Shown here piece after piece: positions 17,945 to 59,704 of a stretch of DNA of 64,000 nucleotides. The translations under genes were made by a program, and so were the position numbers. The stretch is from Dokdonia sp. 4H-3-7-5. GTDB lineage: Bacteria; Bacteroidota; Bacteroidia; Flavobacteriales; Flavobacteriaceae. Location of the stretch: NCBI RefSeq assembly GCF_000212355.1, contig NC_015496.1:2058501-2122500 (forward strand). Direction: 5' to 3'. The notes below the pieces were generated by a model. It searched no databases, was not told the DNA's origin, and was given only the letters and a program-made list of their open reading frames with translations. Position 1 is the first letter of the stretch. The number at the start of each line of letters is the position of its first letter.

Positions 17945-18244
17945 AAATTGGGAATGCCTTAACAAAAACGCAATAATTATAAATCTTGTTTAACATATTG
18001 AAGTGTTAAGTAGTTCTTAATGAAGACTTATGTTTCTTAAAATTTAACAAGTCAATATTTAATTATAAGATTTGTTTAACAAGTCGATCTGAAACTTTCT
18101 TGAACTTTGATAGCTCAATTTCGACTTGTTGAAAGTCGTTTTGAGAATTTAGAATTTCAAATGTTTAATACCTTTATATACGATGTTAGAAGGAAGTATG
18201 TAGAAAATTATATGTTGTTCTTAGAACTAATTAATTAATGTTTC

Positions 18245-18259
18245 GCTTTCGCGAAAGCG
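18245..18259. repeat. Palindromic repeat copy 2 (intergenic)
   Basis: Exact GCTTTCGCGAAAGCG, with C at 18244 completing a perfect 16-bp palindrome. It lies 15 bp downstream of the operon 3 terminator in the minus-strand sense. Confidence 0.9.
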
Positions 18260-23884: not shown

Positions 23885-25579
23885 CTAAAAATTTATCTCC
23901 AATATAATATGAAGTTTTGTGTCTGAAAACTTAAGTCGTTGATTATCAAATAGGCCGTTTGCAATATTCAATTTGAGCAAACCTGCTTTCGTCTGAATGC
24001 CAGTACCTAAGCCAAATCCGTACAGTCTTTGTTTTGATTCGGCTAATTTATTTTCTAGATAACCTATGTCAATTATGGTGTTGACATAGATATTTTTGTT
24101 GAGCTTATATCGGTACTCGGTATTTAGAGTGTTATAAAAATTTGCCAGTAGACTATTTTCCTCAAATCCTCTTAGTGTTAAAATTCCTCCAAAACGATAA
24201 AGCTCGTTAGTTAAGAAATTGTTAGAGATTAAATATCGTGTGGTGTTTTTGGCAAATATGGAGTGAGAGTTGCTTAGAGTGAAAGTATTTTCTATAATAG
24301 CTGTTAAAGAAGTTTGCGTGTTTGAGTTTCTAGTAGTTTTTCTATTTCCGTACGAAGCTTTGGCGTATAGTTGTCTTTTTATAGGAAAAAATAAATCTGA
24401 CGATAGTTCTTGATGTGCGAACGATGAAGAAATTTTGTTTGACGCATAATCTTTTGGGCTTGCTAATGAAGTTATAGTGTCGTCATCTAAGTTTTCGGAT
24501 TGTTCAGATTCGTATCCTATAGTTAGTGTATTTTTCTGGTTGAGTTGGTAAACTAAATCTAAGTTTTGTTGAGTTGTAGAAAACGTACTGTCTTTTCTAA
24601 AAAGATTGAGAGATGCCCCTATTCCTATGGGTGTTTTAAATAGATAGGGAAGGTTGGCGTTTATGTAGAGTTGTGATTGATCCCGGCCATCTGCTTTATA
24701 ATTTAGAGTGAAAGTTTCTCCATAATTGAAGTTGTTGATTAATAGTAGGTCCAGATACCCATTAAAACGGAGTGATTTGGCTTCATCGTTTGCAAACCCT
24801 ATAAACCCATCAAATTTATTTGCATTTTCCCGTTTTAAATAAAGGTAGACGGTTGTGCTGTCGATATTGAACAGAGCTTCTGGTGGTTTTGTTTGGTTAA
24901 CAAATGGAAGTAAAGATATAGCGTTGCTTTGTTTGTTGATTTTTTCACTATTGAATATAGCCCCTTCTTTTAGTTTTATATTATGTCTTAAAAAGCTTTT
25001 AGAAATATTACGGTAACCGTTAATTCTGATTTTGTCAATGCGTCTAGTTTCTTTAAAGCTATAGTTAAGTACTCCTTTAAGATTATGGTCCTTTGTTTTT
25101 GAGATGTTTGATATTTGGAAAGTTGCAAAAGGGTTTCCGCTGCTTGAGGCTATGGAGCTCAACTCTTTTAAATACGCTTTCGCGAAAGCGGTCTCTATAT
25201 ATATGCTGTCATTTTTAATTTCATAACCAGTTTGCTTTATATGGCTATATAACTTGCCCTCATCTTTTACCTTCAATGTAATGAAAGGGTAGGGTTTTTC
25301 TAAAATGAATGTCGCATTATATAAGTTATCATTCTGGGTGGTTAACGTGTATCTACTGTTTATGTGTCCCAAATTACGAAGTTGGTCGTTTAGGTTTTCG
25401 AGTTCATCAAGTGCGGACTGTCTGTCTTTAAATGTAGTCTTATAGTTTGTATTGTTTAGAATGACAGATTCTGATGGAATGCTAGTTTTGATTTCTAAAT
25501 GAATATTCACGTCACTTTTCTGTGCAGACATATGTTGTCTGACAAAGAAAATAATTAAAAGTATAGAGAGTAGTTTCAA
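23885..25579 (-). CDS. Omp85-superfamily outer-membrane barrel with POTRA-like region
   Basis: 564 aa. Signal peptide (MKLLSILLIIFF, cleavage near HMSAQ). Residues about 50-230 hold POTRA-like repeats (NLNDQLRNLGHINSRYTL; INGYRNISKSFLRHNIKLKEGAIFNSEKI, read in parts). The C-terminal part is a barrel with the loop motif RFGGILTLRGFEE, corresponding to the (V/I)RGF motif of BamA, TamA and TpsB proteins, and ends in Phe. Shorter than BamA, so more like a TamA- or secretion-type member. It is divergent from rpsL and alone. The codons for AFAKA (near residue 131) are an exact palindromic repeat. Partner substrate unknown. Confidence 0.82.
   Translation of the reverse strand: MKLLSILLIIFFVRQHMSAQKSDVNIHLEIKTSIPSESVILNNTNYKTTFKDRQSALDELENLNDQLRNLGHINSRYTLTTQNDNLYNATFILEKPYPFITLKVKDEGKLYSHIKQTGYEIKNDSIYIETAFAKAYLKELSSIASSSGNPFATFQISNISKTKDHNLKGVLNYSFKETRRIDKIRINGYRNISKSFLRHNIKLKEGAIFNSEKINKQSNAISLLPFVNQTKPPEALFNIDSTTVYLYLKRENANKFDGFIGFANDEAKSLRFNGYLDLLLINNFNYGETFTLNYKADGRDQSQLYINANLPYLFKTPIGIGASLNLFRKDSTFSTTQQNLDLVYQLNQKNTLTIGYESEQSENLDDDTITSLASPKDYASNKISSSFAHQELSSDLFFPIKRQLYAKASYGNRKTTRNSNTQTSLTAIIENTFTLSNSHSIFAKNTTRYLISNNFLTNELYRFGGILTLRGFEENSLLANFYNTLNTEYRYKLNKNIYVNTIIDIGYLENKLAESKQRLYGFGLGTGIQTKAGLLKLNIANGLFDNQRLKFSDTKLHIILEINF
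25176..25190. repeat. Palindromic repeat copy 3 (inside the Omp85-type gene)
   Basis: Exact GCTTTCGCGAAAGCG, read on the minus strand as gct-ttc-gcg-aaa-gcg (Ala-Phe-Ala-Lys-Ala), a different frame from copy 1. Confidence 0.9.
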
Positions 25580-45005: not shown

Positions 45006-46307
<1,302 letters not shown>

Positions 46308-46337
46308 CAACTGTTAATGATGTTATGCTGTTAATTA

Positions 46338-46366
46338 AATGCCTTCTCGCAGAGAAGGCATTTTTT
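46338..46366 (+). terminator. eno terminator
   Basis: Perfect 11-bp stem AATGCCTTCTC (46338-46348) / GAGAAGGCATT (46352-46362), loop GCA, followed by TTTT; 30 bp after the eno stop. Confidence 0.9.
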
Positions 46367-46595
46367 ATTTGAAGGACAGTTGGGTATCTGTTTTCACACT
46401 TGTTTATAGAAGATATCTTAATTCTAAGATAAATGCCTTCAATGCTTTTTTTTAGTATTTAAAGTTTAAGCTTCAAACAAAAAAAGTAATTAGTTATAAA
46501 GTAGGTAAAATCGTACGTAATATGTGTGGTATATGCGGTGAAATGCATTAATTTTACACTTCCAAACAATAATCTTTGGAGAATGTTTAGGTTTT

Positions 46596-46610
46596 ACTTT
46601 CGCGAAAGCG
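46596..46610. repeat. Palindromic repeat, near-copy (one mismatch)
   Basis: ACTTTCGCGAAAGCG in the eno-gltA gap; the first base is A instead of G. Confidence 0.7.
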
Positions 46611-46690
46611 AATTTTAAATCTATATAGTTCTTTAAATTTTTACCTGGCTCATTCGTTGCGTCGTTAGTGAATAAACAAGCAAGTATGAC

Positions 46691-46826
46691 TTTAAGTTGG
46701 GTAAGAGCGGGCAGTTACGCTTCGATGTTGTACACTCGCTCTTTTTTTAAATGGATTTTGGAGAAATCCAAAATCTAGATTTAAGTTGGGTAAAGGACAT
46801 GTGCTACGGTACATGTCCTTTTTTAT
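46691..46826 (+). ncRNA. Candidate tandem small-RNA or attenuator elements upstream of gltA
   Basis: TTTAAGTTGGGTAA occurs at 46691-46704 and again at 46780-46793. The first copy runs into AGAGCG...CGCTCT plus seven T (46704-46748). The second runs into a perfect 10-bp stem AAGGACATGT/ACATGTCCTT (46793-46802, 46811-46820) plus TTTT. Between them GATTTTGGA-GAAA-TCCAAAATC (46754-46775) forms a 9-bp stem closed by a GNRA-type loop. No protein frame explains this. It may be two small transcripts with terminators or a gltA leader; not matched to a known family. Confidence 0.5.
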
Positions 46827-47034
46827 TATTCTACAAACAGCATATCTGCCTTTGTGTAAAGAGCCTGTATATAAGCTTCTTCTATATTTGGAAAATTCTC
46901 TCTTATCTTATCTAGTAAGAATTTAATTAATTTTTAACCTTCTATGAAGCCTATATGTTAAAAAATGAGACTTCTTTTTTGTAATTTAGCCTAACTTCAA
47001 ACAATAGAATAAAAAAAGAAAAATATAACGATAG

Positions 47035-48321
47035 ATGGCAGATAAAGCAACCCTAACGATAGATGGAAAAAGTTACGAGTTCCCAATAATTACAGGAACT
47101 GAGAAGGAGCAGGCAATTGATATAAAGACGCTCAGAGGAGCTACTGGAGGAATCACGACGATAGATCCAGGTTATAAAAATACAGGGTCTTGTGAGAGCG
47201 CTATTACTTTTCTAGATGGGGAGAAAGGAATTCTTAGATACCGCGGTTATTCAATAGAAGAGCTTGCAGAGAAAGCAGATTTTCTTGAAACAGCTTATTT
47301 ATTGATTTTTGGAGAGCTTCCTACAAAACAACAACTAGATAAATTTCACGCAGATATCAAATCTGAATCTCACGTAGATGAAGATATGAAGAAAATCTTA
47401 GATGGTTTTCCTAAGTCTGCACACCCTATGGGTGTGTTAAGTGCGCTTACCTCTGCACTTATAGCATTTAATCCTTCTACTGTAAATGTAGATTCTGAAG
47501 AAGATATGTATGCTGCTATTGTAAAACTTCTAGCGAAGTTTCCAGTACTAGCTGCATGGGCAATGCGCAAGAAAAAGAGCCAACCTCTTGATTATGGAGA
47601 TAATTCTCTTGGTTATGTAGAGAACTTCCATAAAATGATGTTTGCAAAGCCTAATGAGGAGTATAAGGTGGATAAAGCTGTTATTGAAGCTATTGATAAG
47701 TTACTAATCTTACATGCAGATCATGAGCAAAACTGTTCTACATCTACAGTACGTATAGTAGGATCATCACATGCTGGTTTATTTGCTTCTATTTCTGCAG
47801 GAATCTCTGCATTATGGGGACCATTACACGGTGGAGCAAACCAAGCTGTAATTGAAATGCTAGAAGCAATCAAAGAAGATGGTGGTGATACTAAAAAATA
47901 TATGGCTAAAGCTAAGGATAAGGAAGATCCTTTCCGTTTAATGGGCTTTGGGCATAGAGTATATAAAAACTTTGACCCTAGAGCAAAGATTATTAAAGTA
48001 GCTGCAGATGATGTTCTTACTCAATTAGGAATAGAAGATCCTGTATTGGATATAGCTAAGGGACTTGAAAAAGAAGCTCTTGAAGATCCATATTTTGTAG
48101 ACCGTAAATTATATCCAAACGTAGATTTCTATTCAGGTATTATTTATCGTGCACTAGATATTCCAGTAGAGATGTTTACTGTGATGTTTGCAGTAGGTCG
48201 TCTTCCAGGTTGGATTGCTCAATGGAGAGAGATGAGATTAGGTAAAGAGCCTATCGGACGTCCACGTCAGGTATATACTGGTGAAAACTTAAGATCTTTT
48301 AAAGAGGTTTCAGAGAGATAA
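47035..48321 (+). CDS. gltA: Citrate synthase
   Basis: 428 aa, type II (allosteric-length) form. Condenses oxaloacetate and acetyl-CoA to open the TCA cycle. N-terminal small domain (MADKATLTIDGKSYEFPIIT in parts), GILRYRGYSIEELAE, catalytic His regions LHADHEQNCSTSTVR and FGHRVYKNFDPRAKI, GPLHGGANQAVIEML, and catalytic Asp in YPNVDFYSG. Last gene of the carA-eno-gltA series, with a long upstream non-coding region and its own terminator. The possible -7 box TAATTTAG at 46982 is weak. Confidence 0.97.
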   Translation: MADKATLTIDGKSYEFPIITGTEKEQAIDIKTLRGATGGITTIDPGYKNTGSCESAITFLDGEKGILRYRGYSIEELAEKADFLETAYLLIFGELPTKQQLDKFHADIKSESHVDEDMKKILDGFPKSAHPMGVLSALTSALIAFNPSTVNVDSEEDMYAAIVKLLAKFPVLAAWAMRKKKSQPLDYGDNSLGYVENFHKMMFAKPNEEYKVDKAVIEAIDKLLILHADHEQNCSTSTVRIVGSSHAGLFASISAGISALWGPLHGGANQAVIEMLEAIKEDGGDTKKYMAKAKDKEDPFRLMGFGHRVYKNFDPRAKIIKVAADDVLTQLGIEDPVLDIAKGLEKEALEDPYFVDRKLYPNVDFYSGIIYRALDIPVEMFTVMFAVGRLPGWIAQWREMRLGKEPIGRPRQVYTGENLRSFKEVSER

Positions 48322-53459: not shown

Positions 53460-53525
53460 AAGGAAGGTTATAGATGTTGCAGCTATAGTTTTCTGCAGTT
53501 TACGTTGTTTTAAGGTGTTTGTTGC

Positions 53526-53540
53526 GCTTTCGCGAAAGCG
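53526..53540. repeat. Palindromic repeat copy 7 (upstream of the DUF885 gene)
   Basis: Exact GCTTTCGCGAAAGCG in the intergenic region, 67 bp upstream of the DUF885 start. Confidence 0.92.
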
Positions 53541-59677: not shown

Positions 59678-59689
59678 GTTAGTTGTTAC

Positions 59690-59704
59690 GCTTTCGCGAA
59701 AGCG
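59690..59704. repeat. Palindromic repeat copy 10 (after the barrel gene)
   Basis: Exact GCTTTCGCGAAAGCG, extended to an 18-bp palindrome (59688-59705), 12 bp after the stop and before the terminator, so transcribed in the mRNA tail. Confidence 0.9.

Follow-up and report, generated by a model that had tools for sequence, protein, structure and literature searches.

The eno-gltA intergenic region

In Dokdonia sp. 4H-3-7-5, the enolase gene eno (45018-46307; all positions are those of the 64,000-nt stretch of DNA analyzed here, hereafter the window) and gltA, which encodes citrate synthase (47035-48321, forward strand), are separated by a spacer of 727 nt that contains a structured element on the same strand as gltA. 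The upstream edge of the spacer is formed by the terminator of eno, a perfect 12-bp stem with a T-run on the forward strand (46337-46370). The arm, core, motif copies, hairpins, and promoter-like boxes described below are also on the forward strand.

The element is built around an exact 14-mer, TTTAAGTTGGGTAA, that occurs at 46691-46704 (copy 1) and again at 46780-46793 (copy 2), 89 bp apart from start to start as the first-pass annotation reported, and these are its only exact matches in the 3,389,993-base genome. An exact direct repeat of at least 14 bases arose in 7 of 1,000 dinucleotide shuffles of the spacer (p of about 0.007), and conservation is stronger evidence than the repeat by itself. 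Each copy leads into a terminator-like hairpin with a T-run, again in agreement with the earlier description: T1 (46705-46748, hairpin 46705-46741), identified from the sequence, ends in 7 Ts, and T2 occupies 46793-46825 (hairpin 46793-46820). The sequences of T1 and T2 are unrelated. T1, whose loop is too large for the limit of an automatic terminator scan, was missed by it; the scan did report T2 and the middle hairpin. The middle hairpin lies between the copies (46755-46774), with the stem ATTTTGGA/TCCAAAAT and, in this strain, the GAAA loop previously noted. Upstream of copy 1 are a 5' arm, UUACCUGGCU (46641-46650), that is complementary to both motif copies and can pair with either, and a core, GTTAGTGAATAAAC (46664-46677), that is near-invariant in 16 of 18 Dokdonia and absent from Leeuwenhoekiella. 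The RNA from 46640 to 46830 is predicted to fold at −60.9 kcal/mol against a shuffle mean of −40.9 (z = −4.8); the short form ending at T1 folds by itself no better than shuffles (z = −0.57).

Further upstream, a candidate −7 box, TAATTTTA (46549-46556), is a weak match to the Bacteroidota consensus TAnnTTTG and has counterparts at a comparable position in relatives, also with weak consensus matches. If functional, it would place a transcription start near 46560. Ahead of this candidate promoter, and at a similar distance from it, the spacer alignment of most Dokdonia contains a partly palindromic box, GTAGGTAAAATCGTACG (GTAAGAATAATCTTAC in locus L019), at 46501-46517 in this strain, a possible site for a regulator. 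A separate promoter-like box of gltA, TAATTTAG (46982-46989), is kept in both genera in the same alignment.

Two further repeats were observed in this region. A palindromic sequence, CTTTCGCGAAAGCG, is found at 46597-46610, which in this strain places one copy inside the 5' part of the putative small-RNA gene, and at about 12 further places in the window (for example 18244-18259, 25175-25190, 53525-53540, and 59689-59704). Over 64 kb, 24 strand matches were counted where 0.03 would be expected, and the sequence is frequent in congeneric genomes as well. The gltA start codon itself lies in a 13-bp direct repeat, TAACGATAGATGG (47026-47038 and 47054-47066), the second unit of which supplies an in-frame-looking ATG 28 bases past the start codon.

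Distribution in Flavobacteriaceae

A DNA search of 59 genomes recovered the element in all 17 other Dokdonia genomes, each time in the eno-gltA spacer. The element as such was not found outside Dokdonia in this search, the weak matches in other genera being the different repeat CTTTCGCGAAAGCG. A covariance model built from 18 Dokdonia sequences extended the range to a genome of the Leeuwenhoekiella group (E = 8.6e-8), where the match also lies between eno and gltA. In the genome of Dokdonia sp. 4H-3-7-5 itself, the model matched the element and no paralogous copies. One match in another genus (E = 2e-5; genome G103, locus L042) is not at eno-gltA and lacks the motif pair, and was taken as chance. 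With the spaced pattern motif-T-run-motif, 257 Gb of a GTDB-based prokaryote genome collection yielded 20 matches, from Dokdonia, Leeuwenhoekiella, and 2 metagenome-assembled genomes labelled Cytophagaceae, with no others. All 20 lie between eno and gltA, with the stretch available for locus L088 ending within the gltA start. Conservation beyond this strain, which the first-pass annotation had left to be checked, therefore extends to 2 genera.

In sampled genomes of other Flavobacteriaceae in which eno and gltA are neighbors, the motif pair was not found, and the spacer is mostly 126-301 nt, occasionally about 1 kb. A single gain in the common ancestor of Dokdonia and Leeuwenhoekiella would be the simplest account of these sequences. 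L023 and L024 have since lost copy 2 together with T2 and retain T1, and in L025 T2 is eroded; T1 alone can therefore serve.

Structural conservation and covariation

Covariance analysis, suggested in the first-pass annotation, gave strong covariation for the middle hairpin and T2. In this stretch 3' of T1, 98% of cells in the alignment are paired and 13 of 20 pairs have changed on both sides: 6 of 7 in the middle hairpin across species, and 7 of 13 in T2, where 100% of cells are paired. The covariation score of the two hairpins is 0.497 versus 0.246 for shuffled alignments; nearly all shuffles fall short of the real alignment on each measure, and the signal collapses once the partners are slid. 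The T1 stem is conserved, with fewer variable pairs, compensatory ones among them. In the middle hairpin it is the helix that is conserved and not the GNRA loop, which is replaced by GAUA, AAUU, or larger loops in other sequences.

Both motif copies are near-invariant, whereas the arms and terminators drift, a pattern that fits a motif with a partner outside the molecule. At copy 1, AAGTTGGGTAA is invariant in 18 of 18 Dokdonia, as is the motif form AAGUUGGGUAA, for which Leeuwenhoekiella has AAGUUGGGUGA. The spacing between copies ranges across species from 74 to 100 nt with no steps of three, and the ATG ahead of copy 1 is not common to all species. A coding reading, raised by an ATG-started frame that crosses copy 1 in this strain, was rejected on this lack of conserved spacing and start. 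Two features expected of a small-RNA gene are thus present: intrinsic terminators at the 3' end (T1 and T2, with T-runs and conserved or covarying stems) and the absence of a conserved reading frame.

Predicted pairing between the 5' arm and the motif

Position-fixed duplex energies indicate that in all 27 sequences an arm at a fixed distance upstream pairs with the motif over 7-11 bp, even as the arm sequence changes (UUACCUGGCU in this strain, UUGCCCAA in L016, UUACUUGACUU in L013, and ACCCAAC in L083). A compensatory change from U-A to C-G is seen in L078 and L080, whose arm has UCACC facing GGUGA; in Dokdonia, UUACC faces GGUAA. Most arm-motif changes are one-sided because the 3' (motif) side hardly changes. 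Such one-sidedness would be expected if the site had a second partner, and it leaves the covariation evidence for the arm helix weaker than for the hairpins. Pairing in L019 and L024 is not significant by itself, and the best arm in L088 is located elsewhere. The arm helix was missed by RNAalifold, since MAFFT misaligns the drifting arm.

In L013, L014, L017, L018, and L093, a second arm further upstream can pair with copy 2, giving nested helices. Dokdonia sp. 4H-3-7-5 has one arm, and its putative full transcript is predicted to favor arm:copy 1 over arm:copy 2 (−84.6 versus −81.5 kcal/mol), with the preference moving to copy 2 when the transcript is folded from a shorter start. With a difference of about 3 kcal/mol that flips with the start, the two states appear to be close and to depend on the true 5' end.

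A candidate small-RNA gene with two putative 3' ends

On the comparative evidence, we regard it as established that 2 motif-terminator modules lie behind one 5' region and are under selection. The interpretation towards which we lean, with reserve, is that they belong to a single-copy, clade-specific small-RNA gene, in which each of the 2 modules joins a seed to a terminator and a 5' arm serves to mask a seed. Such a gene, specific to the Dokdonia-Leeuwenhoekiella clade and positioned between eno and gltA, is missing from the annotation. The proposal of duplicated small-RNA genes in the first-pass annotation holds in so far as conservation, covariation, and terminators support a small-RNA gene. 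The duplication does not: only a motif of 11-14 nt is doubled, the hairpins are unrelated, and one arm and one core precede both modules, so that the arrangement looks like one gene with 2 nested 3' ends.

In the proposed scheme, the gene would be driven by its own promoter from a start near 46560, and its transcript would end at either intrinsic terminator, T1 or T2. The motif AAGUUGGGU(A/G)A just ahead of each terminator would be the probable seed, pairing with target RNAs in trans. In the short form ending at T1, copy 1 would be masked by the complementary 5' arm. In the long form of this strain, one arm would face 2 copies, leaving one of them less covered or exchanging between them, and in some relatives the second, outer arm could serve copy 2. 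What would be unusual about this RNA is that a single masking arm goes with a doubled seed. A bolder extension is that the choice of 3' end sets RNA activity by strand exchange, where a T1 end gives a single masked seed, read-through to T2 adds a second seed that the single arm cannot cover along with the first and so switches the RNA on, and clades with a second arm have re-masked it; we consider this extension speculative and improbable.

Searches for trans-encoded targets used the motif complement near start codons in Dokdonia and Leeuwenhoekiella, and among the matches listed no gene was common to genomes. Counts of the motif complement are modestly above a reversed-pattern control in Dokdonia and are not so in Leeuwenhoekiella. 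The neighboring gltA mRNA was rejected as a target: its 5' region in this strain contains CCUAACUUCAAAC, which complements much of the motif, and relatives lack this match. The target searches covered few loci, at most 30 in each, and weigh neither for nor against trans-pairing.

Alternative explanations

The main alternative to trans-pairing is a protein partner, with the doubled motif beside hairpins acting as the site of an RNA-binding protein that is sequestered by the RNA or stabilizes it. An invariant, doubled motif adjoining hairpins is what such a site might look like, and the lack of a conserved mRNA target among the matches listed points the same way, but there are only 2 copies, one of which is paired in most predicted folds, copy 2 or T2 has been lost or eroded in 3 lineages, and no candidate protein emerged. 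We consider this reading unlikely.

A two-step leader of gltA, also put forward in the first-pass annotation, found weak support. Here transcription from upstream would by default end at T1 or T2, a signal being needed for the polymerase to reach gltA, which would make the element a cis-acting attenuator. In both genera the element invariably precedes gltA directly and shares the strand of that gene, and the arm is able to pair with either copy; however, neither minimum free energy folds of the 27 sequences nor constrained folds contain a helix that excludes T1 or T2, no antiterminator overlapping these hairpins being found. Classical attenuation is unlikely in these models, where the pairing site of the arm adjoins the terminators without including them. 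The conserved promoter-like box that gltA has of its own between T2 and its start also argues against a leader, as do the widely varying distance from T2 to gltA and the 2 species that keep T1 only. Cis control of gltA seems to us unlikely, slightly more so than a protein partner.

That the hairpins are redundant terminators or chance structure in an AT-rich spacer, with no product of their own, is very improbable: T-rich hairpins are common and the promoter boxes are weak consensus matches, but eno already has its terminator, compensatory changes and an invariant motif span 2 genera, and in other genera the sampled spacers tend to be short and are without the element. A type III toxin-antitoxin RNA was rejected, as the gene downstream is gltA and not a toxin nuclease and just a 14-nt motif repeats.

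Relation to known RNAs and significance

The element has no match to any family in Rfam 15 at curated or permissive cut-offs; the only Rfam match above the gathering cut-off in the window is the S4-Flavobacteria ribosomal protein leader RF03141 (40599-40630, 41.7 bits). 6S-Flavo RNA (RF01685) resembles the putative product in being a flavobacterial structured small RNA, and was rejected as an identity for the element, which gave no RF01685 match even at E values up to 10. The probable 6S-Flavo RNA of this genome lies elsewhere (G000:C1:2450570-2450691, locus L157), and at 84.9 bits falls marginally short of the 85-bit cut-off. CsrB/RsmZ-type titrating RNAs carry many copies of a short motif repeated by hairpins, with the motif in loops. 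They share with the element a short repeated motif adjoining hairpins; the element, in contrast, has 2 copies, holds the motif in linkers ahead of the hairpins, and possesses a 5' arm able to pair with it.

By type, and not by demonstrated descent, the nearest known kind appears to be flavobacterial small RNAs such as Rfp18 of Flavobacterium psychrophilum, for which transcription and effects on mRNAs have been shown (PMC9723704). From its published description, Rfp18, too, is a structured RNA from an intergenic region; it does not depend on annotated genes and is conserved in a limited clade of Flavobacteriaceae. In this comparison of descriptions, the parts consulted mention no doubled motif with 2 terminators (PMC9723704).

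A literature search of open-access papers found none on Dokdonia small RNAs. To our knowledge, few small RNAs are known from marine flavobacteria, a group of important degraders of algal matter. Dokdonia serves in the laboratory as a model of light-using marine bacteria, and an RNA gene there that is conserved, present once, and easy to delete would offer a direct entry. Should the paired seeds and their single masking arm act as proposed, they would show how the activity of a small RNA can depend on which of 2 terminators ends it.
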